Under the pieces are notes generated by a model. That model made no database searches. It was not told the origin of the DNA and saw nothing but the letters and a program-made list of their open reading frames with translations. A DNA stretch of 64,000 nt from assembly GCA_015234045.1 (NCBI GenBank), contig JADFWU010000012.1:8700-72699 (forward strand), in the 5' to 3' direction. The DNA comes from Magnetococcales bacterium (GTDB lineage Bacteria; Pseudomonadota; Magnetococcia; Magnetococcales; JADFWU01). Position numbers and translations under genes: made by a program. Positions 1,234 through 54,600 of this stretch are shown piece after piece (the stretch's first letter is position 1; every line of letters starts with the position of its first letter).

Positions 1234-1310
1234 CGGGGCGTGGCGCAGCCAGGTAGCGCACTAGCATGGGGTGCTAGGGGTCGGAAGTTCGAATCTTCTC
1301 GCCCCGACCA
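1234..1310 (+). tRNA. tRNA-Pro (anticodon GGG)
   Basis: A 77-base cloverleaf: acceptor CGGGGCG pairs with CGCCCCG; D arm GCGC/GCGC; anticodon stem CTAGC/GCTAG around loop ATGGGGT, giving anticodon GGG; T arm with loop TTCGAAT; discriminator A and an encoded CCA end. It decodes CCC/CCU proline codons. It sits just upstream of the phosphorothioation operon; tRNA 3' ends are common integration points, but no second copy of the 3' end is seen downstream in this window. Confidence 0.97.
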
Positions 1311-1462: not shown

Positions 1463-2773
1463 TTGGACGATTCCGCAAATGCTGAGTTGACACGAACAGC
1501 ACTACGCACACTCTATGAACGTGATGAGCGTCCTTGGGTTGTGGCATTTTCCGGCGGTAAGGATTCAACAATCCTCGCTCAGCTGGTTTGTGAAACATTG
1601 GCAAGTTTGGGTGACCGTGCGAACAAACCTGTACATATTATCTCTTCCGATACACGGGTTGAAGCACCCAATATTGAGAATCACCTGAATAATACGATGA
1701 ACCAAATCAGTGCGTATGCCAAACGCTCTGGCCTTCCTCTTCACGTTGAGTTGGTTCAACCTGATCCACATGAGAGTTTTTGGGGCCTTCTTATTGGTAA
1801 AGGATATCCAGCACCAACGCGTTGGTTTCGCTGGTGTACATCCAAAATGAAAATCAAGCCCATGCGCCGCAGTATGGATAAGATTGCGGCACAATACGGC
1901 AGCATGATTCTGCTTTTGGGTACGCGACGTTCTGAAAGCCCTGAGCGTGCCAAACGTATTCAGGATAGAGCGTTAACCGACGCAGGACTCAACCCGCACC
2001 ATGAAATTCCCAATGCCTTGGTAGCCACACCAATCGTTGATTGGGATACGGAATCAGTCTGGGAATATTTACTCTCCAATCCACCACCCTGGCAGGGCAA
2101 TCACCGTTTCCTTTATGACCTTTACCGTCAGGCAGAGGGTGGAGAGTGTCCTGTAATCCTTGATTTAAGCCAACCCTCATGCGGCGGTAGTCGCTTTGGT
2201 TGCTGGACCTGCACAGTGGTCAAGCTAGACAAATCCATGCAGGGATTTATTGAGTCTGGTGAAGAGTGGATGCGACCGCTGAATGAGTTTCGTAACTGGC
2301 TCAAAGAGGTGCGTGAACGTTCAGATTGGAGACAAGCCAAGCGGCGCAGTGGTGTTATTGTTGAAGGGCGATTGGGACCATTTAAACCGGAAAAACGCAA
2401 ACTTATACTTGAAAAGCTGCTTCAACTTGAAAAGACGTGCAATAAATTATTGATCAGCGATGAGGAATTAGGTTATATTCAATCGGTATGGTCAGATGAA
2501 TTTGATCTGTCACGAAATGCAATTTTGGATCTATGTAAAAATTATGATCGCTATCCCAACCTTTGGGAGGATATCATGCCAATGGATTTTCAAGACGAAT
2601 TGTTAGAACGAATGATCGTTGAAAATAGTCTAGAGCCTGAACTTGCTCATGGTCTGTTGAAATTAGCATATGAGTATCATCATAACCTTGATCAGTATGG
2701 AAAAAAGACTGCTTTTACAAATGAGATCAGTTCGATTATTGAACGTTCAGCAACAAATGCGGAAAATGCATAA
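1463..2773 (+). CDS. dndC: DndC, phosphorothioation sulfurtransferase
   Basis: 436 residues. The PP-loop SGGKDST (residues 30-36) marks an ATP-pyrophosphatase of the PAPS-reductase superfamily. Later come RWCTSKMKIKP and, near residue 240, CGGSRFGCWTCTVVKLDKSM, the cysteine signature characteristic of DndC. DndC activates the DNA backbone with ATP and passes sulfur to it, replacing a non-bridging oxygen (phosphorothioation). The start is TTG, chosen because GGAG lies seven bases upstream and no ATG fits before the PP-loop. It is the first gene of a five-gene operon and is followed after three bases by dndD. No cysteine desulfurase (DndA) or DndB accompanies it, so sulfur probably comes from a housekeeping IscS. 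Confidence 0.92.
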   Translation: MDDSANAELTRTALRTLYERDERPWVVAFSGGKDSTILAQLVCETLASLGDRANKPVHIISSDTRVEAPNIENHLNNTMNQISAYAKRSGLPLHVELVQPDPHESFWGLLIGKGYPAPTRWFRWCTSKMKIKPMRRSMDKIAAQYGSMILLLGTRRSESPERAKRIQDRALTDAGLNPHHEIPNALVATPIVDWDTESVWEYLLSNPPPWQGNHRFLYDLYRQAEGGECPVILDLSQPSCGGSRFGCWTCTVVKLDKSMQGFIESGEEWMRPLNEFRNWLKEVRERSDWRQAKRRSGVIVEGRLGPFKPEKRKLILEKLLQLEKTCNKLLISDEELGYIQSVWSDEFDLSRNAILDLCKNYDRYPNLWEDIMPMDFQDELLERMIVENSLEPELAHGLLKLAYEYHHNLDQYGKKTAFTNEISSIIERSATNAENA

Positions 2774-2776
2774 GCT

Positions 2777-4825
2777 ATGATTTTTGAAAAAATTACTATC
2801 TCAAATCTTTTCTCTTATTTGGGAGAAGTTTCGTTTGATTTTACCGGCCAGCAACCGGATCGCCCGATTATATTAATCAGTGGACGTAATGGATTTGGCA
2901 AAACCAGTTTCCTGAATTCAATCAAACTGCTTTTTACTGGTCCCCATGAGGATCTTCGTAACTCTATTGTCAGCAAACGCAAATTAAGCCAAAGACGGTA
3001 CATACTTGGCCAGGGTGAAGAATGGATGGGGGCTTTACACCGCCATGCACGCACACAACTTAACACCCCTCGCTTCTACGTCCAGTGCGAATGGAACGAA
3101 CAAGACGGTGCCGTAACTGCTCTTCGAGAGTGGTTCCCTGATGGGGATTTTAACCCCGATGGAACATTATCTATCCACACTAATTTTATGGATGAGAAAC
3201 TTATAGGGAGTGATGCTCAACAATTCATTGAGAAACGGCTTCCTTCTTCATATCTCCCCTTTTTCTTTTTTGATGGTGAATTGGTTCAACATTTAGCTCA
3301 AGCCAACAAATCACAATTGGCTGATCAAGTAGAAGGAATTCTTAATATTGCACCAATCAATTCATTACTATTGTATTTGAATAAAGTTAATGGAGGATGG
3401 GCTAAAAAAGGTGCTAAAGCTAATGAACAACGCATACTAAATCAAATTAAGCGAGACTGTGAAGAGATAAATGATCAACTCTCTGCTTTGAAAGAGAAAA
3501 ACACAGAACTTAAGCATACCATTGAGTCCATTACAGATCAAATTGAAGATCTTGAAAGACGCATTAGAAGTCTACAGGGATTCGATGCTCAAGAGGAAGA
3601 GACTCAACTCAAAGCAAAACTCATTAGAATTCAAGATGAATTGGCCCAGTTACGAGTTGATGTGGTAAATCTATTCGCTCCTGCTGCACCACTAACAGTT
3701 AACCAACCTCTGCTTGAAAAAATTTCTCTTAAATTAGAACAACATGACACACAATCGCCTCATCCCAACAAAGAGTTTCTAGGCTATCTACGCCGGCATT
3801 TACCACTTCAAGTATTTGATCGCCCAGCCCCAAGTGATGTGCAATTGAGTAGCACTCAATCTCAATTCTTTCAGGATCGCCTCATACAAGCGTTGGATGG
3901 CAGCATTGAGCAAAGTAAAAATGACAAATCAATTCAAGGACTTCCTGTAGAGAAAACGCGTCGCTCAACACTGAAACGCATTTTGATTCCTATCCAAGAA
4001 AATGACCCACTACCTGATCATGCTCAGCGTTTAACTCAGATTAGGCGTCTTTCTCTTCAGCAATCAGAGATTAAACTGAAATTAGAAAATGCTAGCTCTC
4101 TTCACGAAGAAGATAGACATCAGCTTCAAAGTTTACGTGAACAAAAAAATGCTCTGAGTCAACAGAAGGAAAAACATTTACGCGATTCTGGCAGAACTGA
4201 TCTTGAGATTGAACAGAAAAAACGTGACCTTAAGCGTAAACAAATAGAACGCAATGATCAGGAGAAACAAATTGTAAAAGCAAGTAGATACCATGAACTT
4301 TCAAAACTTACAATCAAACTAAAAGATTGTTTTGATGATTATAAACAAGCACTAAGATCAAATCGTCGAAAATCTGTAGAAGAAACAATCAACCGTCATT
4401 ATAAAATATTAATGACCAGTAATGATTTATTACATAAAATCAGCGTAGATGAAAATTTCGGCATTCACTACGAAGATCAAGATGGTGCTTTACTTGGCAG
4501 TGCCAGCCTTTCAGCAGGCATGAAACAGTTGGCAGCAATTTCCCTGCTATGGGCATTAAAAGAGGTTGCTAAGAAATCTGTTCCTATCATTGTTGATACA
4601 CCTTTAGCTCGTATTGACCGAAAAAATCAAGAAAATCTACTACGCTCATATTTTCCTAAAGCATCTGAACAAGTGATTATGTTACCCACTGATTCTGAAC
4701 TGGACCCCACTAAATACAAGATTTTGTCTCCTTTCATTTATCGAGAGTATCAGCTTGACAATCCCAGTGGGGATGGTACGCAAGCACATGAACAGTCGAT
4801 GTATCCAGATGATCAGGAGGCATAA
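2777..4825 (+). CDS. dndD: DndD, SMC/Rad50-like ATPase of DNA phosphorothioation
   Basis: 682 residues, close to the usual DndD length. Walker A is GRNGFGKTS (residues 36-44). A hydrophobic FFFFDGE motif lies near residue 165. Long charged coiled-coil stretches cover about 215-285 and 430-500. The ABC signature SLSAGMKQL (about 577) and Walker B VPIIVDTPLARID (about 600) close the bipartite ATPase head. DndD is thought to supply ATP-driven DNA remodelling or nicking for sulfur insertion by DndC. It starts three bases after dndC, and its stop overlaps the next start by one base (TAATG), so the proteins are almost certainly co-translated. Confidence 0.92.
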   Translation: MIFEKITISNLFSYLGEVSFDFTGQQPDRPIILISGRNGFGKTSFLNSIKLLFTGPHEDLRNSIVSKRKLSQRRYILGQGEEWMGALHRHARTQLNTPRFYVQCEWNEQDGAVTALREWFPDGDFNPDGTLSIHTNFMDEKLIGSDAQQFIEKRLPSSYLPFFFFDGELVQHLAQANKSQLADQVEGILNIAPINSLLLYLNKVNGGWAKKGAKANEQRILNQIKRDCEEINDQLSALKEKNTELKHTIESITDQIEDLERRIRSLQGFDAQEEETQLKAKLIRIQDELAQLRVDVVNLFAPAAPLTVNQPLLEKISLKLEQHDTQSPHPNKEFLGYLRRHLPLQVFDRPAPSDVQLSSTQSQFFQDRLIQALDGSIEQSKNDKSIQGLPVEKTRRSTLKRILIPIQENDPLPDHAQRLTQIRRLSLQQSEIKLKLENASSLHEEDRHQLQSLREQKNALSQQKEKHLRDSGRTDLEIEQKKRDLKRKQIERNDQEKQIVKASRYHELSKLTIKLKDCFDDYKQALRSNRRKSVEETINRHYKILMTSNDLLHKISVDENFGIHYEDQDGALLGSASLSAGMKQLAAISLLWALKEVAKKSVPIIVDTPLARIDRKNQENLLRSYFPKASEQVIMLPTDSELDPTKYKILSPFIYREYQLDNPSGDGTQAHEQSMYPDDQEA

Positions 4826-6327
4826 TGGCTGATATTTTCACCAGTCAAGAAGATGAAAAATCCATTGAGAACATACTCTTAAAAGGGCTTATGGTTAAAG
4901 CACCTAAATGGGTTGTTATGCGCCTTGCTCTAGCTCATTCGCTCAAAATTCTCTCACCACCAGATGAGGAACTGGACCTGATTGACCAAAAAGGATCTGA
5001 ATATCATCTAGAGCAAGTCACAGGTCAGGGGCAAGGACGTAGCAGTTCAACAGGTCAACGCCAGGATTACACCGATGCCTTTCGCGGTTTACTCAGCGTT
5101 TATTCGGATGAAGATCTATTTGCGGATGAGCGCACCTTTAAGAAATATTTGCAACGCCATATTCGGCGTGGTCTGCGGGAATTTCGGAATGGATGGCGGG
5201 ATAGCCACAATTTTCATGAATATCTTTATCAAGAACTGTGTGCAGGGCTGAGCAGTACAACCAATCAAACAGAGACTGATTTCAAGGAACTATTAATTAC
5301 TGCTTTGATGGAGATCGGTATTTCTGGGCAAATCACACAGACCATTGATGGTCCACGCATTACCCGCTACTCAGTGAGATTAGAAGACCCAAATCACCTA
5401 GATCATATTCTCCGAGGGTTGGATAAAATCGCTTTTTCATTGGGCTTGAATAAACATGGTATTTTCCCTGTTGAAACCCAAGAGCGTAAAGTCATCGGTC
5501 TGGATATTCCTCGCCCTCGTAGCGCTTGGGACACCATCTCCGGTGTTCAATTATTGGAATGGGCTCAAAAACCACCAAAGGGGATGATTCTTCCTGTCTG
5601 CTTAGGCGTAAATGTAATCGGAGAACCAATCTTTTTTGATTTAGTCAATCAACCTCATCTTTTGGTTGGCGGTACCACTGGTAGCGGAAAAAGTGTCTGT
5701 CTACACGCTTTGCTTCTTTCTCTGCTGATAGGTGTGGAACATGATCAATTAGAGCTTTTCCTTATTGATCCCAAAAAAGTTGAATTTGCGCCTTATGCCA
5801 AAGCAGGCTCAAAACGTATTACTGTCGTTACTGATATTAAGGAAGCACAGAAAAAACTGAATGCCTTGGTTATTGAGATGGATGCACGTGCCACAGCCAT
5901 GGAACTGGCTGGTGTCCGTGATCTGGCTGAAGGACACAAAAAAGGCGTGATAGATAAACCCTATATCGCAGTTTTTGTTGAAGAATTGGCTGACTTGATC
6001 ATGCAATCCCCAGAGACTGAAGAGCTCTTGATCCGCCTCGCCCAAAAAGCACGTGCCACCGGCATTCACTTAGTTATTGCTACCCAGCGTCCTGATGCTC
6101 GGACAATAAATGGTCTGCTGCGCTCTAATATTCCTGCCCGTATTGCCCTGACCGTTCAAAAGGCTACCGAATCCAAAATTATTCTGGATGAAAATGGCGC
6201 CGAACGTCTCACGGGCAACGGAGATATGTTGACCCGCCTCAGTGGAGAAGAACTATTACGTGCCCATGGAGCGTATGTAACCGTTGATGATATTAAAGCA
6301 ACTGTACGTAATGAAGGGAGACACTAA
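4825..6327 (+). CDS. DndE-like domain fused to FtsK/SpoIIIE DNA translocase
   Basis: 500 residues. Residues 1-115 resemble the small DndE protein: KAPKWVVMRLALAHSLKI, a diverged linker, then an FKKYLQRHIRRGLREF helix. After this come the FtsK beta domain (GPRITRYSVRLEDPNHLDHI) and the RecA-like motor, with Walker A GGTTGSGKS near 282, LIDPKKVEFAPY, VFVEELADLIM and ATQRPDARTINGLLRSNIPA. The C-terminal FtsK gamma (DNA-orientation) domain is absent, as are the N-terminal membrane segments, so this is a soluble cytoplasmic motor. DndE binds nicked DNA in canonical Dnd systems; the fusion suggests modification or scanning coupled to translocation. AGGAGG precedes the ATG by four bases. Both neighbours overlap it by one base. 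The FtsK call is certain; the DndE call rests on motif likeness and gene order. Confidence 0.85.
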   Translation: MADIFTSQEDEKSIENILLKGLMVKAPKWVVMRLALAHSLKILSPPDEELDLIDQKGSEYHLEQVTGQGQGRSSSTGQRQDYTDAFRGLLSVYSDEDLFADERTFKKYLQRHIRRGLREFRNGWRDSHNFHEYLYQELCAGLSSTTNQTETDFKELLITALMEIGISGQITQTIDGPRITRYSVRLEDPNHLDHILRGLDKIAFSLGLNKHGIFPVETQERKVIGLDIPRPRSAWDTISGVQLLEWAQKPPKGMILPVCLGVNVIGEPIFFDLVNQPHLLVGGTTGSGKSVCLHALLLSLLIGVEHDQLELFLIDPKKVEFAPYAKAGSKRITVVTDIKEAQKKLNALVIEMDARATAMELAGVRDLAEGHKKGVIDKPYIAVFVEELADLIMQSPETEELLIRLAQKARATGIHLVIATQRPDARTINGLLRSNIPARIALTVQKATESKIILDENGAERLTGNGDMLTRLSGEELLRAHGAYVTVDDIKATVRNEGRH

Positions 6328-7475
6328 TGGAACCAACCATCTTAATACGTTCCTGCACTCCCATTGCGTTAACCGCAATTGGCATGGGACCATTTCAGGA
6401 AAAACCATTTCATTTGGAGTTTTTAAACCGAGAAAAAGAAAGCTGTAATTTTTTTCTATTAATCTCTGCTAATGCACGAGGAAAAACCACCCTGCTGGAA
6501 GCCATGACAAATCTGATGGCACTCCTCGATCCAAAAGCAACGCCTGCCTCACCACAAAAACGACTGTGGTCTAACCCTAGAGCCTGTGCCCAGTTGGATC
6601 TTCGGCTTGTTGTTAACATGGATGGAGTAGTCCGTGAAGTTCTTCTAACTCTGGCAGCCGGTCCAGGCAGACCGCATGAGATCAGAAGCTGGGAAAACAG
6701 CACTTTGCGAGAGGTGCAAACCGAGCAACATCTGTGGATTTCATGGAAACGTTCTCCAGGTGGTCATTGGTCACTGGAAAAGTCCAAAGATCCGCTGATT
6801 GATGAATTACGCGCCCAAGTTGGCATGGAGATGGAGAATGTTTATGAAACATTCGGACCTGATTCCATTGCCGTGCCGTCCCTACTCTACTTCGATGCCT
6901 ATCGAGATATTCCTACTGTTGAAGATCGAAATGAATCCATCAGCCGACCACCAGAGTGGGTGTTTCGCCCACACCACCATTTTGGATTACGTGGTGATCA
7001 GTGGCAACATAGTTTGGATAACCTGCTTGTTTGGCTGACATGGCTGGATGATGGGCGTGATAAAGAAGTTCAAGATCTACTCAATCGCTTTGTCTTCACC
7101 GGTACAAATAAAAAACTTAATCCAATTAGCCGTCAATATATGGAAGCGCGTGTTTCAAGTGGTGAAACCACTCATATGCTTGACCAACTCTCCAGCGGTG
7201 AAAAAAGTCTTGTACAATTATTGCTCAGGATACACCTACATTTAACTGAAAACTGCGTCATTCTGATTGATGAAATAGATGCACACCTACATGTCAAACT
7301 ACAACACCGCCTATATCAAGCCCTTAAACAGCTCATTCGAGAGAATCCCAGTATCACTCTCATTGCTACTACCCACTCCATGGAATTGATAGATCAGTTC
7401 ACCACTGATATGGATGCCGGAGAACCACTTCTCAGGCTTGGTGGACACCTTATTGATCTTGACGAAATTTATTGA
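6327..7475 (+). CDS. ABC/AAA15-type ATPase, AriA-like, paired with DUF4435 protein
   Basis: 382 residues. The nucleotide site is an unusual Walker A, ISANARGKTT (near residue 50), where the first glycine of GxxxxGKT is replaced. An ABC signature LSSGEKS (about 290), Walker B CVILIDEIDAHLH (about 312) and the switch histidine in ATTHSME (about 350) follow. This is the AAA15/21, OLD-like architecture, without long coiled coils. An ATPase of this sort directly followed by a DUF4435 TOPRIM-like protein is the layout of PARIS (AriA/AriB), where the ATPase senses a phage trigger and releases the nuclease. Here it is the fourth gene of the dnd operon, overlapping its upstream neighbour by one base. 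Role in defence is inferred. Confidence 0.75.
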   Translation: MEPTILIRSCTPIALTAIGMGPFQEKPFHLEFLNREKESCNFFLLISANARGKTTLLEAMTNLMALLDPKATPASPQKRLWSNPRACAQLDLRLVVNMDGVVREVLLTLAAGPGRPHEIRSWENSTLREVQTEQHLWISWKRSPGGHWSLEKSKDPLIDELRAQVGMEMENVYETFGPDSIAVPSLLYFDAYRDIPTVEDRNESISRPPEWVFRPHHHFGLRGDQWQHSLDNLLVWLTWLDDGRDKEVQDLLNRFVFTGTNKKLNPISRQYMEARVSSGETTHMLDQLSSGEKSLVQLLLRIHLHLTENCVILIDEIDAHLHVKLQHRLYQALKQLIRENPSITLIATTHSMELIDQFTTDMDAGEPLLRLGGHLIDLDEIY

Positions 7476-7490
7476 TAACGGAGATTTATC

Positions 7491-8396
7491 GTGGGGAATT
7501 TTGCCAAAACAAGTATTTCTAAAGCAATTAATAAACAGTATTCAAATCGAGTGATATTATATTTAGAATCAAAAGAAGACTATGATGTTTTTAAAGAGCG
7601 TTGGTACAAAGACTGGGGCGAATGGATCGATTTTAAAGCTGTGGATACACCAAAAGGTGGAGATGGCGGCTCCTCTCAAGTTTATCGACAAGTAGAATAC
7701 GATCGAGAAAATAATACGCCTGCCTTTGGAATTGTTGATCGTGATGCATTTCTCAATGATTTTATCTTTCCTGATCAAATGGATCAAATCTCATTTTTTG
7801 AATCCGATCATAGTGTTTTTGATAATATTCAAGTCCTTGAAAACCACATTAAAGTGCTGCGTCGATGGGAGATAGAGAACTATCTTCTTCATCCTGATGC
7901 CATTGCGAAATTAATAGAAAGTTGTGAAAATAACGAGGGAAAATGCGCATCAAATCAAGCATCTCAATGCTTATTGGACTTCTCTGATACCGCTATTCTA
8001 TTATCAGCTGCAATTTTAGTTCTCATGAAAGAAAAAGAGAAAGCTTTTACAGATAACTTTGGCAGAGATGCTACTAACAACGTAGAACGAAAAAAAATAA
8101 TTATTGAATATTTAGAAAAGCGTGATATCAAGAATATTGAAGATAAATTAAAAGAAATGATAAAACGCATTCATACATTTCAGCGTGAAGAATCATGCTC
8201 AGAAGAAGCACGATGGAACCAACTCAATCATTTAATAAACGGAAAAGTCTTCCTCACCCAATTTTGTCACTGGCTTGGCTTCAAAGATCCCAGACGATTA
8301 GAGCTAGCTGGCAGGATTCGGGACGATAAATTAATTGATCCTGAAATCCAAGAGTTCATGGACTCTTTGCAATCAAAAGCCAAACTATTGAGTTGA
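7491..8396 (+). CDS. DUF4435 TOPRIM-like (AriB/OLD-type) putative nuclease
   Basis: 301 residues, starting with GTG seven bases after GGAG. The N-terminal ILYLESKED (Glu26/Glu29), the acidic pair in GIVDRDAF (Asp83, Asp85) and RWEIENYLL (about 125-133) follow the DUF4435 pattern: a TOPRIM-type metal site of Glu plus DxD, then a conserved helix. In PARIS the equivalent AriB is the toxic effector nuclease; OLD-family TOPRIM domains cut DNA. It is the last gene of the phosphorothioation operon, 15 bases after the ATPase. The gene is visibly richer in A and T than dndC, which hints at separate ancestry for the pair. Substrate (DNA or tRNA) cannot be told from the sequence. Confidence 0.72.
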   Translation: MGNFAKTSISKAINKQYSNRVILYLESKEDYDVFKERWYKDWGEWIDFKAVDTPKGGDGGSSQVYRQVEYDRENNTPAFGIVDRDAFLNDFIFPDQMDQISFFESDHSVFDNIQVLENHIKVLRRWEIENYLLHPDAIAKLIESCENNEGKCASNQASQCLLDFSDTAILLSAAILVLMKEKEKAFTDNFGRDATNNVERKKIIIEYLEKRDIKNIEDKLKEMIKRIHTFQREESCSEEARWNQLNHLINGKVFLTQFCHWLGFKDPRRLELAGRIRDDKLIDPEIQEFMDSLQSKAKLLS

Positions 8397-9326: not shown

Positions 9327-9461
9327 GGTTCACCATTGCGCTGTTAGGGGAAATCAGCCGGAAATAAGTGTATAATGCCTCACAATCCCATTGTCACCAA
9401 TGGTCTACGTTATAAGCATTATCCCTCATAGTTGATAGATTTCACAAAGGTATCGATCCGC
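9327..9461. promoter_or_regulatory. Divergent intergenic region with a -10 candidate
   Basis: This 135-base gap lies between two divergent genes and must hold both promoters. On the plus strand a perfect TATAAT (9371-9376) lies about 85 bases before the patatin start, but no good -35 box stands at 16-18 bases from it. AAAGG at 9446-9450 is the likely ribosome site of the patatin gene. Confidence 0.35.
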
Positions 9462-11669
9462 ATGGCGTCCGTTGGCCACCTGTCTGAAGAGACATACAAT
9501 ACGATTCTCCAGTCCAGTATATTTCAGGGCCAGAACGCGACACTCATGCGCCATCTCCTTGCCGATGCCAGAGAATGGCACTGCAAAACAGGACAGTTCA
9601 TTGCCCAGGGACATACGCCTCAAGAGATGCTGTTTTTATTGCTCAAAGGCGAGCTGGAAACGATTCCTGTGGATGGGACATCTTTCTTTGAAGCAACACC
9701 GCTGACACCGGGTACCCTGGTGGGCACACCGTCAGCTTGGGATGGCCTGTTATGGTCTGATTCGATCCGCTGCCGGAGCGCTGTCCATGTGGTGAGCATC
9801 ACTCTCTCCTCCTTGCGCGTGGCTGCGCGTGATTATCCTGAACAGCTGGGTCGGATTGCCGAATTTCGCGCTCTGATAGCGGATCAAACACGCCTGAATG
9901 GCGCATTGCAAAATAATGGCACAGCATTGCATCTGGATCAGGACGCAATCCGCGATTTAATCACCATCATGACACTGCGTAGCTATACCGGTGGCAGTAC
10001 CATTTTTCATTATGGTGATCAGGGTGATTCTCTATTGATCGTGGTCAGTGGACGACTTCGGGCCTCACGTATGGGTGAGGATGGACAACGCATTTTGTTC
10101 AACGATTACGGTCCTGGCTCCAGCGTGGGAGAGTTAAGCGTCATTCTTGAAGTGACCAGACAGGCAGATATCACAGCGGTTCGTGATTCCACTGTCGCGG
10201 TATTGAATCGGAAATTATTTGCCCGCATTCTGACCAAACATCCTGTTGCCATCAACCAAGCCTTTTCTCGGGTGATTTTTGATCACTTAAAAATCACTGA
10301 CGAGCCGAAACGACGCTACTCCCGCGTCATCACCCTGGTTCCTTTGCAATCAGTCAATCAAAGTCAGGATGTGGTGAGAAATCTGGCTAAAGCGCTTGAG
10401 TTTCATGGATCGGTCAAATACCTCACCCAAGCTCAGGGAGAAGCATTGTTGCCGGAAAAAGGCGGCAACACCCACTTTATTGAAGAGTTGGCCGAGCTGG
10501 AACAGGCATATGACTATGTTATCCTGGAGGGCAGTCATAAATACTCTCCGTGGACCCGTCAATGCATACGGCAATCGGATCATCTGCTGTTTATCGCTCA
10601 TGCCCTCGCTGACCCAGCACCAACCACTTTGGAACAAAAACTGATCCAGGAACCATGGTACGATCTACTGCACAAAAGTCTGATCCTAATCCACGATCAA
10701 GACAGTACTTTTCCCGAAAACAGTGCACACTGGTTGGCAGCACGTTCTGTTGAACGTCACTACCATATGCGCCAAGGAGATCATCAAGATTTTCAACGGC
10801 TGGCCCGATTTCTGATCGGCAAGGCCATTGGCCTTGTACTGGGTGGTGGCGGTGCCAGAGGCTTGGCTCATTTGGGACTGTTAAGAGCCATGTCCGAGTT
10901 GGATATTCCGATAGATATGATCGGTGGCAACAGTATTGGTGCCTTGATTGGTGCCAGCCATCTGACCGGCTTTACCGGTGATGAAGTGCTTGAGAATATT
11001 ATCCGTTTTTCCACCAGTGGTCAGCGTCCCGGACTGCCGATTCTATCCTTGATATCCGGCGTACCCATGGCCAGAGCAACCCGAAAGTTTTTCGGACAAC
11101 GGCACATTGAGGATCTGTGGATTCCCTATTTCAGCGTCTCTTGCAACCTGAGTCGTGCCGACCTCAAAACCCATGGTTCTGGTCTATTATGGCAAGCGGT
11201 ATTGGCCAGCAACTCACCCGCAGGACTGTTGCCTCCCGTGCCTGATCAAGGTGACCTACTGGTTGATGCCGCTGTACTCAACAACGTACCCGTGGATGTA
11301 ATGCGACAGCGCTTGGGAGAGGGCCAAATCATTGCCATTGATGTCAATATCCGTGATGAGTTGACTGTTGATCCCACAGCGACCCAACTCTCCGGCTGGC
11401 AGGTACTCAACGAGCGGTTCAACCCACTGAACAAAGCATCCTCACGAACACCGGGCATTATGGATATCATCACCCGCACCAGTATCATCGGTGCCGTGGC
11501 CCAACAGACCAAAACCCGTCAACTGGCGGATCTCTACCTCCAACCGCCGGTATCCGAGTACCCACTGTTTGGATTCCGCCATGGTGCCGATATTGTCGCT
11601 GCGGGATACCGCTACGGACTCAAAAAACTCTCTGCATGGTGGCAGGAACAAAACAGCACATCACTCTGA
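9462..11669 (+). CDS. NTE-type patatin phospholipase with two cyclic-nucleotide-binding domains
   Basis: About 735 residues. N-terminal residues ~20-130 form a degenerate cNMP-binding fold and ~150-280 a better one (IFHYGDQGDSLLIVVSGRL, then GSSVGELSVI). A Rossmann-like linker region (LVPLQSVNQSQDVVRNLAKAL) follows. The C-terminal patatin domain has the oxyanion loop LGGGGARGLAHLG, nucleophile elbow GNSIG, and catalytic Asp in VDAAVLNN. This matches neuropathy-target-esterase-like lysophospholipases, which hydrolyse membrane (lyso)phospholipids under cNMP control. I prefer the ATG at 9462, with AAAGG eleven bases upstream, over an in-frame TTG at 9432 lacking a ribosome site. Its last bases overlap the convergent radical SAM gene by nine bases. 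Confidence 0.88.
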   Translation: MASVGHLSEETYNTILQSSIFQGQNATLMRHLLADAREWHCKTGQFIAQGHTPQEMLFLLLKGELETIPVDGTSFFEATPLTPGTLVGTPSAWDGLLWSDSIRCRSAVHVVSITLSSLRVAARDYPEQLGRIAEFRALIADQTRLNGALQNNGTALHLDQDAIRDLITIMTLRSYTGGSTIFHYGDQGDSLLIVVSGRLRASRMGEDGQRILFNDYGPGSSVGELSVILEVTRQADITAVRDSTVAVLNRKLFARILTKHPVAINQAFSRVIFDHLKITDEPKRRYSRVITLVPLQSVNQSQDVVRNLAKALEFHGSVKYLTQAQGEALLPEKGGNTHFIEELAELEQAYDYVILEGSHKYSPWTRQCIRQSDHLLFIAHALADPAPTTLEQKLIQEPWYDLLHKSLILIHDQDSTFPENSAHWLAARSVERHYHMRQGDHQDFQRLARFLIGKAIGLVLGGGGARGLAHLGLLRAMSELDIPIDMIGGNSIGALIGASHLTGFTGDEVLENIIRFSTSGQRPGLPILSLISGVPMARATRKFFGQRHIEDLWIPYFSVSCNLSRADLKTHGSGLLWQAVLASNSPAGLLPPVPDQGDLLVDAAVLNNVPVDVMRQRLGEGQIIAIDVNIRDELTVDPTATQLSGWQVLNERFNPLNKASSRTPGIMDIITRTSIIGAVAQQTKTRQLADLYLQPPVSEYPLFGFRHGADIVAAGYRYGLKKLSAWWQEQNSTSL

Positions 11670-14138: not shown

Positions 14139-17100
14139 TCAGCCCTTACGATCCAAACAATGCCGTACGCTTTGCACCAACTTTTGCAGATATTTTCCAC
14201 GGGTCATGCCTGCATGTCCACCCATGACATCCTTGATCACAAGTCCCTGAGGAAAATAGCGCTGTCGCCGTCCAAACATCCGCCAGGACCAACCGGACAT
14301 AGGCGTACCTTGTATCAATATTGCCAAACCTGGATAGGGCTGATGGGCGGATTGATTCAAGGCCCGCAACTGGATCTGTAGCCCTGAATCCCCAAAACGC
14401 CGGGTTAAATGGAATCGACGTCCGGTCATTTTGACCATCGCACTGATCAAACGATAACCCCAATAATAAACCGGAATCAGGGTGGGATAGATGGTATCCA
14501 ACAAGATAGGCGGCCCTGGCTTCATCCCCTGTTCAGTAAGCAGCTGTCCCACAAACAAAGCGGCCGATCCGCCAATGGAATAACCACCGATATGAATCTC
14601 CTGTTCGGTAGTGAATTGACGAATACAGCGCACATAACGAACCGCCAACTGAGCCATGGAAGGTGGCCCATCCTCATCAGAATAACAACCCGGCGGTTGG
14701 AGCAGAAAAAAAGGATATTGAGGGCCGAGCGCCTCTGCAATACGTCCCAATCTTTGCCGGTCTCCCAAAGCGGATGCAATACAAAAAAAGGGAGGGTTCT
14801 GCTTGATTCCCGGCAATATGGGATTCAACACCATGCAGGTGACTTCATCAATCAGCCCCTGCCCGTCTGTCTGAGCCGAGGCGCTACTGAGTGAACCTTG
14901 CTGTTGCGCCTGGATAATCTGTCCGATAGCCGCGATGGTAGGTTGTTGAAAAAGCGCCCGTAGCGGCAACGTAACCGCGTATTTTTTCTCCATCTCCGCC
15001 ATCAAGGTGAGAGCGGATAAAGAGTCACCACCCAGGGTGAAAAAATCGTCATGAACACTGATTTTTTCTTGGGACAGCACCCCTTCCCAAAGAGCCAGCA
15101 ACTCCTTTTCCAAAAGCGTATCAGGCGGAACAATCTGGCGTGAGACGGCCTTACTAATTTGCGGTTTGGGCAGTTGAGTGTAATCCACTTTGCCGTTGTC
15201 ACTCAGAGGTAAAGTTTCTACGATTTGAATAACGGAAGGAATCATATAATCCGGCAAACGCTTGCGTAAAAAATGGCGCAATGCTTTCTCTGAGAGTATG
15301 AGAGAATCTACAGCATCTTGGATCACATAGGCTGCCAACACCTCACCGTTTCCTTGATTTTCAGGCAATGGAAACAGCTGTACAGCGACCAACTGCACCG
15401 CAGGATGCTGAATCAAAACCGACTCGATCTCTTCCAGCTCAATACGATACCCACGCAACTTGACCTGTCGATCCATACGTCCCAGAAACAACAATTGACC
15501 ATCCGCTCGCCATTGCCCACGATCACCAGTGCGATACATGCGCGCACCGGCAACAGGGCTGAAGGGATCAGCAACAAACTGCTTTTCTGTCAACTCAGGA
15601 TGATTCAAATACCCTTTTGCCAACGCCGAACCACCAATATGTATCTGCCCGGATTTACCAATAGGAACCACCTGCCCTGCCCGGTCCAACACATAAATTC
15701 GACTATGATCAAGGGGTTTTCCCAACGGAAGATAGCCCGTTTCCAAACTTGGATCACCAGCCCAACAGGTGGCTAGAATGGTTGCCTCGGTAGGTCCGTA
15801 GAAGTTTAATAGACGACAGTTCAACCCCTGTTGAACCTGTGTAGCCAGCGCAGCAGATAGCGCCTCACCACCACTGGTTACGATGCGCAATGCCTCCAAT
15901 TTACAAGCTTCGGCACCTTTTACAAAACCATCCAACATAGCAGGAACAAGGGATAAAATCGTAATCCTATGCGCTTCAGCCAATGTTGCCAAAACCTGGG
16001 GCGTTTGCCGCCCTGCTGGAGGCAACACCAGACACGCACCAATACTCAATGGCAGAAAAATTTCATGGGCTGCCGGATCAAATCCCAAGCGGAAAAACTG
16101 CAACACACGATCCGCAGCGCTGATTTGCACTGTTTCTGCCATCCAAGCCAGCCGACAAGCCAAAGCCCAATGTCCAACCATCACACCCTTTGGCTGACCG
16201 GTCGTGCCCGAAGTATGGATCACATAAGCTAACGTATCACGCGCTTCAGAGAGTGGCGGATCGCTTTCAAACCCTTCCAACTCAAGCCCCTCAGGCCAGA
16301 ACGGGAATGCTGATTTCAACACAATGCACTTACAAGATAGCCCTTGCAGCAAAGCCGCCTCTTCCTCAGAGGTGATCAGTAACGCAACACCAGCAGTTTC
16401 ACACATCGCTTTGATACGCGCTGGTGGATGTTCTGGATCAAGGGGCAGATAACCGCCTCGCGCCTTGAGGATAGCCAATACCGCAACAATCATGGCGGGT
16501 GAACGATGAATACAAATCCCTACCGCGCTGTTCGATCTCACACCCAATTCGATAAGGTGGTGCGCCAATTGATTGGCCGAGCGGTTTAAATCTCCATAAT
16601 CCATTGAATGATCTGCCCAACGGAGCGCTTCAGCATGTGGTGTCAGCTGTGCTTGATGCTCAAACGCTTGATGGACCGGCATCCATGATGAGACATGCGC
16701 GCCCTCTATTGCGGGATTGAAGCCTGAAACAATCTGTTCTTTCTGAGCTGGTGGCAGAAAATCCAACCGTCCCATAGGTCGCTCGGGATGAGCCATAACC
16801 GCATCAAGTAAATGCCTGGCCCGCTCTACCATCAAAGAGCGCTCTTCGGTTGGAACACGATCACGATTGAATTCAAACAGCAGTTGAATATCCTCATCAG
16901 GATGGTTTTCCAGAATAGTAACCAACAGAGCATGAGAGCCCAATCCAGAAAATATTCTACTGGAATGGGCAGGGATTCCGTTGAAATCGGTGGTCAGATC
17001 CCATTTATCATGGGTCAAAACGACATCAAACAGGCGTTTCTCTCCACCGGCAAGCCCTGTCATACGGGCGATTTCACCAACGGGAAAGCGTTTATGGCGG

Positions 17101-18044
17101 AAACTTTTCCGCATCTGTTGGATCACGTCGGTTAATAGCTGTTCAAAAGTCTGTTCAGGATTCCAAGTTAGGCGTATAGGATTGAGATCTACCAACATTC
17201 CGGGCGTATTGCGTAACAAACCGCTGCGGTGATGCACGGGGATGCCGATGACCACCTCTCCTTCTTGATCGGATGCCATGAGCAGAGGAACCAGCAATCC
17301 CAGGAAAAGGTGATACGGAACACCTTGGTACTGCTTGCTCCATTTTATAATTTGGTTAAACCTATCGCGAGAAAAACGCAAGGAGAGCGTCTGTACCGGA
17401 CTGGGACACCCTGACTGACCGGGAAACAGAGCTGATACTGGTCGGTCAAACATCGTTTGCCAATAGTCCCGATCTCTGGCAAAAGCCGCTGACTGACGAT
17501 ATGTGCGTTCTGAAGCCAGATAATCCAGATAAGAGGCCCCATTGTGTTGCGGTGGCGCTATTCCTTCCGATAGATAAGAGTAAATCTCGGCCCAGCGCCT
17601 GAGCAGCACTGCGGTTGAAAAGCCATCGCAAATCACATGATGGTATTTGTGGGAAAAAATGCTATACGCATCACCAACACGCGCCAGTCTGAACTGAAAC
17701 AACAGGGTATCATCCAGAGGAAAAGGGCGTGAGAAGCGCTCAACGATCCAGGCCATAGCCTGCTCTTTTTGTGCGGCGGTAAAAGACTTTATTTCCAGCT
17801 GTGGTTTTGGATCAGCATGCCAGATCTGTACAGGTGCCGCGCCTCTGGCTGAAGGAATCAGGCGCAGTGCATCCGTTTCTCTGACCAGCTGTATCAGGGC
17901 CTGTTGCAGCAAAGCAGGATCTAATCCCAGTGCAATTTGTCCGAAGCCACCGACAACAAGGTGATGGGAATCAACACAAAGCAGCTGATCCAACCACAGG
18001 TCCCGTTGATTGGCGGCCAGCGCGTAAGTGTGATCCTGATCCAT
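14139..18044 (-). CDS. Single-module non-ribosomal peptide synthetase (C-A-T-TE)
   Basis: 1,301 residues from the ATG preceding LAANQRDLWLDQLL, the usual condensation-domain opening; the frame extends upstream 35 codons without support. Condensation domain ~1-440 with intact HHVICDG (135-141). Adenylation domain ~460-960: A3 HTSGTTGQPKGV near 610, NFYGPTEATI, YRTGDRGQW, GRMDRQVKLRGYRIEL and LPLSDNGKVDY. Its pocket starts at FDPAAHEIF in place of the common FDASVWEIF. Carrier domain FFTLGGDSLS (Ser near 1006) takes phosphopantetheine. Thioesterase ~1070-1300 with GYSIGG and a late His in MGGHAGM. The assembly loads one amino acid, condenses it with a donor made elsewhere and releases it, so N-acyl amino acids or small amides are plausible products. 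Substrate is not predictable by eye. Confidence 0.93.
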   Translation of the reverse strand: MDQDHTYALAANQRDLWLDQLLCVDSHHLVVGGFGQIALGLDPALLQQALIQLVRETDALRLIPSARGAAPVQIWHADPKPQLEIKSFTAAQKEQAMAWIVERFSRPFPLDDTLLFQFRLARVGDAYSIFSHKYHHVICDGFSTAVLLRRWAEIYSYLSEGIAPPQHNGASYLDYLASERTYRQSAAFARDRDYWQTMFDRPVSALFPGQSGCPSPVQTLSLRFSRDRFNQIIKWSKQYQGVPYHLFLGLLVPLLMASDQEGEVVIGIPVHHRSGLLRNTPGMLVDLNPIRLTWNPEQTFEQLLTDVIQQMRKSFRHKRFPVGEIARMTGLAGGEKRLFDVVLTHDKWDLTTDFNGIPAHSSRIFSGLGSHALLVTILENHPDEDIQLLFEFNRDRVPTEERSLMVERARHLLDAVMAHPERPMGRLDFLPPAQKEQIVSGFNPAIEGAHVSSWMPVHQAFEHQAQLTPHAEALRWADHSMDYGDLNRSANQLAHHLIELGVRSNSAVGICIHRSPAMIVAVLAILKARGGYLPLDPEHPPARIKAMCETAGVALLITSEEEAALLQGLSCKCIVLKSAFPFWPEGLELEGFESDPPLSEARDTLAYVIHTSGTTGQPKGVMVGHWALACRLAWMAETVQISAADRVLQFFRLGFDPAAHEIFLPLSIGACLVLPPAGRQTPQVLATLAEAHRITILSLVPAMLDGFVKGAEACKLEALRIVTSGGEALSAALATQVQQGLNCRLLNFYGPTEATILATCWAGDPSLETGYLPLGKPLDHSRIYVLDRAGQVVPIGKSGQIHIGGSALAKGYLNHPELTEKQFVADPFSPVAGARMYRTGDRGQWRADGQLLFLGRMDRQVKLRGYRIELEEIESVLIQHPAVQLVAVQLFPLPENQGNGEVLAAYVIQDAVDSLILSEKALRHFLRKRLPDYMIPSVIQIVETLPLSDNGKVDYTQLPKPQISKAVSRQIVPPDTLLEKELLALWEGVLSQEKISVHDDFFTLGGDSLSALTLMAEMEKKYAVTLPLRALFQQPTIAAIGQIIQAQQQGSLSSASAQTDGQGLIDEVTCMVLNPILPGIKQNPPFFCIASALGDRQRLGRIAEALGPQYPFFLLQPPGCYSDEDGPPSMAQLAVRYVRCIRQFTTEQEIHIGGYSIGGSAALFVGQLLTEQGMKPGPPILLDTIYPTLIPVYYWGYRLISAMVKMTGRRFHLTRRFGDSGLQIQLRALNQSAHQPYPGLAILIQGTPMSGWSWRMFGRRQRYFPQGLVIKDVMGGHAGMTRGKYLQKLVQSVRHCLDRKG

Positions 18045-18293
18045 GTAGAATTCTAATATCAGAGAGGAAAATGGAATGCGCCATCCACAGCGTATTGTTG
18101 GGCAGTGCCGCGTTACGCATGCTCGACCCGTTTCATATGCAGAATACAACCACGCACTCTACCACGGGCACCAACACAACGGCAAGTTCATCAGACACAT
18201 AATATGGAAGTATTTCCAATGGTTATGTACCATACACATCAACAGAGACATGGTAAATTACCGGAGTTTATCTCTCTTAGGAATATCTATAAC

Positions 18294-48604: not shown

Positions 48605-51600
48605 TCAGGTCATATCGACAAAGTTTTGCGTGACAGTGTCATCAATCAGCAAGGTTGCCGAGTCGAGGGTATACGTACCATAGGTGATGCTATCAATCAC
48701 CGTATCGGTTTCGGTATTCCAGATACCACCGATATTCACCGTATCACCGGCATCACCCGTGATGATCAACTGATCACTCTCATCGGAAAGATCCAGAATA
48801 TCAGCAAGATCCAACGTGACACTGTTGTCACCAGAACCGGTCAGATCGATATTCTCAATGCCTTTATAGAGGGCATTATCAATCTGTGTCAGGTCCAAAC
48901 TCAACGCATCTCCATCCAACATCAGTGTATCATCGTCGGCACCACCATCGACGGTGCCAAGATCCAGACTATCCCAGACCAGGATATCATCACCAGGCCC
49001 ACCATTCAGGATGTCATTACCAAGCCCACCATCCAGGTAATCATCACCATCACCACCCATCAAGGTGTCATCACCGATACTACCCTTCAGTAAGTCATCA
49101 CCACCATACCCCATCAAAGCATCAGCGCCACTACTGCCCAACATGGCATCATTACCCTCTGTGCCTAACTGCGTCAGCCCGCCTTGAGCACCAGAATCAT
49201 GAACCGTGATACCAATGGTTCCAGAATCAGAAAGCCCACCCTGATCAGTAACGGTATAGCTAAAACTATCCGTGCCGACAAAGCTGGTATCCGGTGTATA
49301 GGTGTAGGTGCCATCGGTAGTACTGAAGACCAATGTACCGTGGGTAACATCAGCATCCAGAGCAAAATTCAACGTGCTAATGTCATCATCCACATCATTG
49401 TCAATGACAGTGTGGCTGATGGCTTGATCCATACTGGCCAATATGACACCAGCTGCATCAACACCCCCTGTGGAAGCCACAGAAGCCTGATTCAAAGCGG
49501 ATAAACCGGTGAGATCAGCCATATCAAAGTTACCAATCAGATTGGCATCACTGACATCCAGTGACTGATACATGTTCTCTCGGATTTCTTCTTCAGAGCG
49601 GATGGTGTCCCAAATACGCACTTCATCCAGATCACCGTTCAAGGTTTGGTCCAGATTGGAGTTACCGCCGATATACAGTCGGCTATTGCCTCCATCGGTT
49701 GGATCACCATTAGAATATGTGCCGGAACCAACCAACACGCCATCCAGATAGAGCGTGACCTCATTGGTGGTAGCATCTCGAACCAAACTGACATGGTGCC
49801 ACGCATCGGTAGTCAAGTTGGTATCAAAGGTTACCTCATTCAACAGGATATCCGTTCCACTCTCATGGAAGTAGACCAGATCACCATTCACATCCACTTT
49901 TAGCGCATAGTAGGCGTTATTGAGATATGTCGTTATCCCCTGCTCATGGAAAGCCATCAGGAACTGTTCATCCGTTCCAACCGCGTCCAAACGAACCCAG
50001 GTTTCCAGGGTCAGATCACCTGCAATAGCAAAGGCATCCAATGTTCCACGACCTGCGTCTACCACATCACCGACACCATCCAACGTAAGATGATCACCCA
50101 ACGTTGGAATTGCAGGCGCATCGTTGATTGGATTGATATTGACGGTCACCTGCTCGGTATTGTGACCGCTGTATTGATCATGGACATTGAGCGTGAATGT
50201 CTCACTGCCATCAAAGTCAGGATCGGGCGTGTACGTCCATGCACCAGTTCCAGGATCAACAGTGAGCGTACCGTTGATCGGTGCCTCTTCAACACCAAAG
50301 GTAAGCGCATCTCCTTCTTCATCTGTAGAGGTAATACCACTTGTGATCGCGGTATCTTCGTCCAGACTGATCGGAGAACCATCCTGAACCGTCATGCTGG
50401 GCACAAAATTAAGTGCTGATGTTTGTGTGGTATCACTGAACGCAGTAGTACCACCACTGGTTGAAACAGTAATGTTGATATCACCACTGGCATTACTATC
50501 ACTCTGATCCCACAAACGGTAGGTCAGATTGGCGGTAGAGCCACTGGTATAGTCAACAGTGCCTTCATAACGCAGCAGTGCATCACCATCCAGCAACGTT
50601 GCTGTGGCATCGGCCAAAGTGCCAAAGGTATTCCAGTTGGTGCCGCTATCCGTGCTGTACGCCCAAGAACCATTGGTCTCAGTGAGTCCGGTAATGGCAA
50701 CACCCAGCACATCACCATCCGGGTCCGTGCCGATCAAATCAACAAAGTCTGAAACCAGAACACCGCTCGTGCTCACTGTTACAACATCATCAGGCATCAT
50801 GATGGCTGGGCCTGCGATATCCGAAACCGTTGAGACAACAGATCCAGCCCAATCTGCATCACCACCACTGGTTCCGACCAGATTGTCCGCAACACCGCCG
50901 GTACTTTCATCAAGCGGCCAGTAACCAACCAGTCCCTCTTCAGCACCACTCAGCGTGCGGAAGATATCCGATTGAATATCCGCCTGTGTCCGACTGACAT
51001 CCCAGACGCGCACCTCATCCATATCACCATCAAAGTAGTTGCTGCCCGCTTCATCCCGTCCAATAGTCAGAATCCCGTTCTGACCGCCGGAAAGCGGGTT
51101 AACATAGTCCAACCTACCGGCCAGTTGACCATCCAGGTAGAGCGTGACGGTTTGGTCAACACTGTCACGGGACAGTGCCACGTGATACCAGGTATCGGAA
51201 GCGATTGGTGGATTATCAAAGGCAAGTGTTTCGAAGGATTCTGCACCATACTCCTGCACAAGCGTGAACGTACCATCAGAGTCAATTGAAAGGCTGTAGA
51301 GCGTATTGTCCACATCCGCCGCCGCACCACCGCTGAAACAGACAATAGGATGGCTTGTGGTACCCAAAGTTGGTTTAACCCAGGCTTCAATTGTCAGATC
51401 TTCAGTGATTACAAACGGCTGACCAACACCACCACCCGCGTTCAGATACTCGGAAGTACCACCCAGTGTGACATGACGGGTAAACGACTCAAAATAGGGC
51501 GCATCCTGAGTACCAGTCACCGTGACATCAATGACAGCGTCACTACCTCCGCCCAATTCATCGCTGACACGCACGGTAAAGCTATCAGCACCGAAGAAAT

Positions 51601-54600
51601 TGACATCTGGTTCATAGACCCAATCACCGGTACTGACATTCAGAGAAACCACACCACTCTCCGGTTGTCCGGTCACTGAATAGCTGAGGGTTGAGCTGTC
51701 ATAGTCATCCGAACCAATCGTACCGTTGAGCGTACCCTCTTCCCCAATGCTATACGACCCGGGCTGGGCGGATGGTGCCATATTGATGGAGCGATAGAGC
51801 GTTGCCGTACTGAAAGCGGTAACACCGCCCGTACCTGCTGTGGCGATATCTACAGAACTACCATCAACAGCACCATCGGAACCATCCCAAGCTCTCAGCT
51901 GAATATAGGCATCCAGATACCCACTACCAGCGGTATCCGGCGTATAACGGACCAGGTTATTGACATCCGAAGTAAGTACCAATGCAGCGGCTTCGGTAAC
52001 AGCACCAACAGCACTCCAGCTGGTACCACCATCCATGGAGTATTCCCAGCTGCCATCACCACCATTATCCGCATCAACGATGGCAACACCAAGCGACTCA
52101 GGATCAGGATCAGTAAAGTAGCCTTCCAGCAACTCCGCCACCAAGAAGTCGGTTGCCGCCCCGCCCATAACGTTCAGCGGTGCCGCACTCACATTTGGTG
52201 TAGTCAACGTATCCGACAGTCCAGGCAACGTGCTGGACACATCTACCAGCGCATAAGCAGAACTACCAGCATCAACAGCAGTGGCATCCCCTGCTCCATC
52301 AACCCCATCAACCCGATTGGTCACCACGGTTACATCATCCATGGCCCAATAGCCTACCAGACCAAAACTACCATCGGTGACAATCGTATTCATTTCAGCA
52401 CGAATTTCATCACCACTGCGGGCAACATCCCAGATACGCACCTCATCCATCAGGCCATCAAAACGATTCAGGCTACCACTCAAACTGCCGATATAAAGCT
52501 GACCGTTTTCACCACCGGATGGCCCGGTATCAAAGTTGGTTGTACCGGCAATTTCTCCATCCAAATAGAGGGTTACCGTCTGTCCTGCCCGTACCAATGC
52601 CACATGGTGCCAAGCATCTTGTGAAGGTGCGGCATTCGTTGCCCACTCAACAAAATTTCCAGATTCAAATTCATGTGAGTAGACAAAGAAGCCATCAGCA
52701 ACCAGAGAAAGCTCGTACAATCCGTTGTCAGTGGCGTTACTCGTTGCATCACCGTAGAAACTGATCAGTGTCTGATCACCACTACCGGTACTATCCTGAT
52801 TAAACCAAGCCTCAATGGTCATATCACCAGTCAGAGCCAAAGCATCCTCAAAGCCCCGTCCTGCTTCCAGATGAACCTGACCATCCATGGACATGGCCGT
52901 ATCAAAACGAGACATGACCGGCACATCCTGAATACCATTAACCGTGACAGACTGTGAGGCTGTATTGGTACTGAAAGCCGTATCAGCGCCCGTACCCGCA
53001 GCTGTGATATCCACGCCTGTCTGACCATTGGTAGCACCTGTATTGGTCTGATCCCAGGCCCGGTAGGTAATATTGGCATCACCACTGAAGTCAGCTTCAG
53101 GAATAAAACGGATAGCCGTGCCTGTATCAGGCATCAGAGTCACGGCGTTGGACTCGCTTACCGAGACCATATTGGTCCAAGTCACGGTCGCGGCATTGAT
53201 ATCCGTAGTGAATGACCATGTTCCGGCGGCATCATCTGTTTCCGTGACGGCAAGGCCAACACCATCACCATCCACATCACTGCCAACACGTGATAACAGA
53301 TCGGACACCAAAGCTGTCGTGCCACTGGTGTCGTCTTCATCAATTGCGTCGAAACCCTGTGCATTGAACAAAATTGATGTGAAGGAGCGGGATTCCAAGT
53401 TTGAGTTGTAATCAGTGGCCTGACTGTAATCCAAGGTAGTGCCTGCCGCACTGCCATCGGAAATCCAGAAATCAGTGCTATTGGAAGAGTTGCTTCCATT
53501 AGGATAGGAATAGGAATATTCATGTGCCCGAACAACGGCAACAGCCTTGTCACCCATTGCAAACAGGTTTTGAACAGAAGCCGATTCGTAACCATATGTC
53601 ACATCATTATAGTGGCTGTCTTGGGCAATATCCTTGACCAGCTGAGTACCCTCAACGGTTCCGTCTGTCTTCCATAACTCATTGCCATCATTACCATCGC
53701 TATCAGCAAGGAAGAACAGAGAACCATCCACCTCGGTGAAATGACTCGCCTGGCCAAGATTTCCGTATGATGAATTCGTATTGAACGAAGTCAATTTAAC
53801 GGTATTGCCTGCGGTGCCATCTGATTTCCACACTTCCCAACCATTACCACTATCAGCAGCAAAGACCAGTTCACTATTGAATTCGGTTAATTCACCAAAA
53901 CTGGTTGAGTAGGCATATCCACTGTATGAGTTCGTGCCGGTATTTATCTCGGCAACCAAGGATGGCGTAGATGAACCGGCATCCAATTTCCACAGCTCTG
54001 TTCCATGTGCATCACGTCCATCGTCAGCAACAAAGAAGAGAGTTGATCCAACAACGGTAAAGTCATGTGCATAGCTGCCGTAGTTAGCCACGGTATTAAT
54101 ATCAGCTACGAGAGTCGTTCCTGCATCCGTGCCATCCGAGCGCCACAACTCAGTATTTGCAACGCTACCATCATTGGCCCTGAAGTAGAGATAGCCATCG
54201 AATTCAATCAGATCATCCGCCCAACTGGAGCTACTGCCTGTATAGATATCCGACACCAGAGAAACGGTTCCATCATCACCTTCTACCTTATACAACTCAC
54301 GACCATAGGTCTCATCCGTGGCCACGAAGAACATATCACCATCAAAAGCGGTAAAATTAGTCGGAGACGATGAGGCATTAGCCGTTGAATTGATATCTTC
54401 AACAAGCGTTGTACCTGCTGCTGTACCATCGGTTTTCCACAACTCATTACCGGTCGTACCGTCATTGGCTGCAAAGAAGAGATACCCGTTCATCTCTTCC
54501 GCATTAACACCATAGGCCGAGGCCGCATTGCCTGAGATGGCTCCGCTGTTCGAACTGCCAGAATAGATATCTTTGATAAAGGTTGCCGTGAAACCATCAA

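Follow-up and report, generated by a model that had tools for sequence, protein, structure and literature searches.

Fusions of clade-3 HerA/FtsK domains to DndE, encoded beside a DndD-related ATPase, appear in the main text of Rakesh, Aravind and Krishnan 2024 (PMC10853773), so that a DndE-FtsK fusion is not new by itself. The second system of concern here, PARIS, is an abortive-infection system whose known examples are triggered by phage proteins, and the TOPRIM nuclease of the studied PARIS cuts tRNA. Its published detection rule calls for neighbouring genes that match AAA_21 and DUF4435, each with at least 27 bits (PMC9122126). An ATPase-DUF4435 pair has also been found inside the BREX operon of Salmonella (StySA), where it is dispensable for modification (PMC9009780).

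The stretch analysed here (64,000 nucleotides of a Magnetococcales contig, hereafter the window) contains a five-gene operon in the order dndC–dndD–dndE-ftsK–ariA–ariB, in which a dndE-ftsK fusion is the third gene. The location of these genes and of their domains is given in Table 1. The genes are tightly spaced, with one-base start/stop overlaps or short gaps and with Shine-Dalgarno-like sequences. A tRNA-Pro gene immediately precedes them, and a search for an att-like repeat of its end found none.

Table 1. Position of the operon features in the window and of related features in other loci.
Feature	Locus	Position	Strand	Size or residues	Basis
tRNA-Pro (GGG), immediately 5' of the operon	window	1234..1310	+		flank
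dndC, PAPS-reductase-like sulfurtransferase with C-terminal Sp-like domain	window	1463..2773	+	436 aa	TIGR03183; PADLOC
DndC C-terminal domain, homologous to the stand-alone Sp-DndD small protein	window	2585..2770	+	residues 375-436	profile comparison
dndD, coiled-coil ABC ATPase	window	2777..4825	+		TIGR03185, 268.4 bits vs 245.85
dndE-ftsK fusion	window	4825..6327	+	500 aa	single open frame
DndE domain	window	4840..5187	+	residues 6-121	PF08870, 31.9 bits; hhalign vs canonical DndE
FtsK alpha domain	window	5263..5511	+	residues 147-229	PF17854, 28.9 bits
FtsK/SpoIIIE motor	window	5584..6309	+	residues 254-495	PF01580, 140.5 bits over 254-423
ariA-like ABC/OLD-type ATPase	window	6327..7475	+	382 aa	AAA_21; PADLOC; solved AriA
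ariB-like DUF4435 TOPRIM nuclease (predicted)	window	7491..8396	+	301 aa	PF14491; PADLOC; alignment
Sp / DndC C-terminal domain	L034	7770-7964			
Sp / DndC C-terminal domain	L035	5211-5423			
Sp / DndC C-terminal domain	L135	5398-5613			
TusA after dndE-ftsK	L135	9227-9463			Pfam
TusA after dndE-ftsK	L136	9263-9466			annotation
TusA after dndE-ftsK	L043	5324-5566			Pfam

Three other genes of the window may be mentioned. The frame at 9432-11669 has a cyclic-nucleotide-binding domain, an NTE-type P-loop and a patatin phospholipase domain (Pfam), and its product is a predicted bacterial homologue of neuropathy target esterase. On the minus strand, a long frame (14139-18149) is non-ribosomal peptide synthetase-like, with condensation, adenylation, carrier and thioesterase domains recognised by eye, and a frame of 5121 codons (48605-63970) that has laminin-G, cadherin-like, bacterial Ig and RTX calcium-binding repeats towards the C-terminal end probably encodes a giant secreted adhesin-like protein.

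The fusion gene occupies exactly the frame given in a preliminary description of this DNA, which had read its N-terminus as DndE. PF08870 indeed covers residues 6-121 above its curated cut-off of 25 (E 1.7e-7), a cut-off passed in 9 of the 10 fusion-bearing genomes. When the profile of 12 fusion N-domains was compared with that of seven canonical stand-alone DndEs, hhalign aligned 112 columns (prob 94.9, E 4.3e-8). The seven canonical proteins in turn, taken as a profile, lead to the DndE crystal structures 7x4e, 4lrv and 5wtu, so that the tie of the N-domain to these structures passes through canonical DndEs as intermediates; searched directly against solved structures, the N-domain profile gave nothing meaningful, with DndE not among the matches. 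Against a few DndEs, most of them of Pbe type, the same profile gave prob 4.1 and no alignment. The AlphaFold model of the fusion, built from a two-sequence alignment, is poor (pLDDT 46, with 24-40 for the DndE domain, where two ribbon-helix-helix units would be expected), and the DndE assignment is drawn from the sequence profiles, which are clear.

The remainder of the fusion had been described as the beta domain and motor of FtsK. The motor is there, and 12/12 aligned fusions keep its Walker A motif (GTTGSGKS), the acidic residues of Walker B and the ATQRP sensor, but the FtsK part starts with an alpha domain (Pfam cut-off 22.9), and the earlier description was incomplete in this respect. 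This alpha domain is separate from the DndE domain and C-terminal to it, so the N-terminus is not an ordinary FtsK alpha domain. Inspection of the sequence by eye agrees with the earlier reading that the fusion has neither a membrane segment nor a gamma domain. The same genome encodes its cellular FtsK in another gene, and that protein has a winged-helix-like tail at its C-terminus. In the tree, the motor of the window fusion is separated from 24 FtsKs of other loci (support 100/100), nearly all of cellular type, and all 15 fusion motors form one clade against these (100/100). The DndD partners of the fusions fall into two separate groups of the DndD tree; the single motor clade together with these two groups suggests one motor capture followed by reshuffling with DndD.

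Upstream of the fusion, the dndC product scores 353.8 bits with TIGR03183 (cut-off 290.4) and E 2.5e-122 with the PADLOC DndC model, and an SGGKDS loop and a Cys motif are visible. The label PbeC given by PADLOC to the dndD product was rejected: cysteine scanning detects no CxC zinc hook (neither CxC nor CxxC, where three Pbe-type proteins carry CVC/CIC) and the tree places the protein outside the Pbe/CxC clade. Neither DndA nor DndB is encoded in the operon. The genome encodes IscS, a candidate sulfur donor, so that DndC, DndD and DndE are present beside a sulfur donor, with DndE paired to DndD in the operon.

The C-terminal domain of DndC is homologous to Sp, the stand-alone small protein of Sp-DndD operons (PF20306). 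A profile of the C-termini of canonical DndCs retrieved 5/5 Sp-DndD proteins of fusion operons from 14,503 frames (E 1.7e-5 to 4e-4), and direct comparison of the DndC C-terminus with the Sp profile gave prob 96 and E 2e-9, the domain of the window DndC alone being more weakly related (prob 85). Short DndCs (355-379 residues) are accompanied by a separate Sp gene and long DndCs have the domain built in. The domain survives in relatives with a deleted catalytic part, which suggests that Sp is the adaptor part of DndC, retained for the ATPase complex once sulfur transfer was lost. Seen as a detached C-terminal domain of DndC, Sp is likely to link DndC to the ATPase as an adaptor. A limited literature search met with no earlier mention of this homology, which looks new.

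The two downstream genes follow the PARIS rule with 62.5 bits for AAA_21 and 27.2 bits for PF14491 (DUF4435), the second value being marginal. The AriA-like protein further matches the PADLOC AriA model (E 5.5e-18) and solved AriA (E 1e-8), mainly over its C-terminal ATPase half. The AriB-like protein matches the PADLOC AriB model (E 1.2e-11); its profile found no match among solved structures, and its AlphaFold model, also from a two-sequence alignment, is poor (pLDDT 38). Residues E26, D30, D83, E127, E129 and N130 are invariant in 11/11 aligned proteins and D85 is found in 10/11, so that the TOPRIM catalytic acidic residues (E26, D30, D83) are kept. E26 shares its residue number with the mutated catalytic residue of E. 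coli AriB. The preliminary description had allowed that such fusions may be catalogued already, which is the case (PMC10853773), and had singled out the pairing with the downstream genes as the new part of the locus, a view strengthened by the PARIS-like nature of the pair and by the recurrence of this gene order in lineages far apart.

All five genes recur in this arrangement in further genomes of the taxonomic order to which the window belongs, and in one more distant genome of the phylum, from another family (G194, locus L044). Without the first gene, the order dndD–dndE-ftsK–ariA–ariB occurs on a Mesorhizobium plasmid, with a DndC-D-E set upstream, and in a Desulfobacteraceae contig. Only two records among 72,556 plasmids searched match the DndE N-domain, and the same two are the only ones to match the AriA-like protein. 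Among 398 genomes of the phylum, 10 have the fusion and 10 a close (strong) AriA match, 9 being common to both. A scan of genome contigs, dominated by ordinary FtsKs, returned one true relative (L046), and a scan of viral contigs returned none. DndE-FtsK, AriA and AriB diverge in a correlated manner (Mantel r 0.92-0.97; within the window's order, r 0.63 for DndE-FtsK against AriA or AriB). A copy on a plasmid of Rhizobium sp. RCAM05350 (L033, 3969-13520), in which many frameshifts split most genes, probably through sequencing error, was left out as evidence of decay.

The Dnd-type and AriAB modules usually occur together yet are separable, since each is found without the other. An AriA-AriB pair belonging to the operon-specific type occurs in genome G037 with no Dnd genes, and its AriA sits among the operon-linked AriAs in the tree (91/87). 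This pair (L168, 9675-11765) lies 3' of a small FHA-like protein recognised by eye. Conversely, AriAB is absent and TusA directly follows dndE-ftsK in G164 and on plasmids of Aureimonas and Rhizobium phaseoli (loci L043, L135 and L136). This position of TusA ties the Dnd core to sulfur transfer and suggests a dedicated sulfur relay to DndC.

Eight genomes of the window's order, including that of the window, have the fusion; G081 was left out of the dndC count as its contig ends inside dndD. The sulfurtransferase part of dndC is absent or broken in four of the remaining seven, and dndC is whole in the window genome, G125 and G026. In G041, ca. the last 62 DndC residues alone precede dndD; in G141, an 80-residue stand-alone DndC remnant lies 5' of dndD; in G057, an in-frame deletion has removed residues ca. 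122-356; and in G065 (L042), dndC has one stop and one frameshift. This last case may reflect sequencing error; an assembly gap was rejected as the cause, the N run being located elsewhere. The loss genomes are drafts, and the G141 operon lies on two contigs with a short gap between them. No second DndC was found elsewhere in these four genomes, each of which has one DndE.

Among the remaining operon genes, one visible break occurs (AriA in G057), DndD being partly unseen in G141 and G081. Breaks are thus found in 4/7 dndC genes and in 1/31 others (Fisher p 0.002, a guide only as genes and genomes are not independent). Where they could be estimated, dN/dS ratios are at or below about 0.35 for the fusion, AriA, AriB and the DndC remnant, also between two DndC-less genomes; in G041 and G141, where catalytic DndC is gone, purifying selection acts on dndE-ftsK, ariA and ariB, all of them intact. 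The sister of G141 in the motor tree is G125, in which DndC is kept, so that at least two separate losses would have occurred if this branch holds. The gene set is apparently able to survive when the enzyme that adds sulfur is lost. Such loss of the sulfurtransferase part of DndC looks new and, being found in several relatives, suggests that modification is not the sole role of the fusion complex.

The reading that we favour, with moderate confidence, is that of a composite anti-invader operon in which a Dnd-derived scanning complex carries an embedded PARIS-type layer and phosphorothioation is optional. The DndD-type coiled-coil ABC ATPase would pair with the DNA-binding DndE domain, and the fused FtsK motor would move this complex along double-stranded DNA; the preliminary description had likewise suggested that a protein tracking along DNA carries out modification or sensing. 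DndC, where whole and anchored through its C-terminal Sp-like domain, could add the phosphorothioate, a housekeeping cysteine desulfurase supplying the sulfur. In the second module, the AriA-like ATPase would keep the AriB-like TOPRIM nuclease inactive until infection releases it and cell growth stops. The trigger would most likely be a phage protein that blocks or bypasses the first module, and we lean towards phage proteins, rather than the scanning complex, as what sets off AriAB. The two modules would be inherited together as a rule and remain separable.

Joint retention and correlated divergence would also fit a single integrated complex instead of two layers. In such a five-protein pathway, DndD/DndE-FtsK would scan DNA and itself trigger AriA-AriB on invader DNA, with DndC as an add-on; the adjacency and gene order strictly kept across distant hosts, the near confinement of this AriA family to fusion operons and the joint retention of Sp-DndD-E/FtsK-AriA-AriB after the DndC catalytic loss in G041 and G141 all point that way. 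We regard it as a tentative possibility, because the stand-alone pair of G037 and the operons with TusA in place of AriAB show that neither module needs the other, and known PARIS responds to phage proteins. That a former DNA-modification complex, turned into a phosphorothioate-independent Dnd-type scanner (Sp-DndD-DndE/FtsK), directly licenses the PARIS-type abortive nuclease, the whole acting as a motor-driven invader sensor, is likewise a tentative possibility. A plain Dnd modification complex, with FtsK merely a motor and AriAB an unrelated neighbour, would agree with the TusA-type operons, which share the same core; the conserved order in distant lineages, the overlapping genes and the correlated divergence make this quite unlikely. 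Ordinary restriction-modification, in which DndC-D-E/FtsK would mark self DNA with phosphorothioate and AriA-AriB would attack unmarked DNA, could draw on the complete DndC of the window, the IscS of its genome and the TOPRIM nuclease of the operon. It is nevertheless very unlikely: loss of DndC would expose unmarked self DNA to attack, and G041 and G141 have no DndC catalytic domain at all beside their conserved dndE-ftsK, ariA and ariB, while the TOPRIM nuclease of the PARIS studied so far has tRNA as its target.

Of the closest known systems, the Dnd variant of PMC10853773 has, like the window, an operon of phosphorothioate type in which a DndE-HerA/FtsK protein is encoded beside an ABC ATPase related to DndD, whereas a search of the main text of that paper found no OLD-ABC/TOPRIM (PARIS) pair, no TusA and no reduction of DndC to its C-terminal domain. 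PbeABCD/CxC systems likewise have a small protein, a coiled-coil ABC ATPase and a DndE-type protein in a row; in contrast, the CxC hook is missing from the window ATPase, which groups apart from the Pbe clade, its DndE domain resembles canonical DndE, and the operon has no HKD-helicase PbeA. DndFGH also contains a defence protein with a captured FtsK-type motor (the C-terminal HerA/FtsK of DndH), but DndH has ca. 1700 aa and a nuclease and the window fusion 500 aa and DndE; a DndH model found no match in the window genome and was equally silent in every control genome.

As in PARIS, the downstream pair consists of an AAA_21 ATPase followed by a DUF4435 TOPRIM protein, with the difference that it is embedded in a Dnd operon and that its AriB-like member is divergent, just over the family cut-off. 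The operon adds a DNA motor to the DNA-reading subunit, and the natural loss of catalytic DndC allows one to test directly if complexes of Dnd type do more than write sulfur. Like StySA BREX of Salmonella, the window has a PARIS-type pair within a DNA-modification-based defence operon, the core being methylation/BREX in StySA and Dnd with an FtsK motor here. The gene set looks like a new combined anti-phage system, in which two separately studied defences, Dnd phosphorothioation and PARIS, are joined in one recurrent operon.
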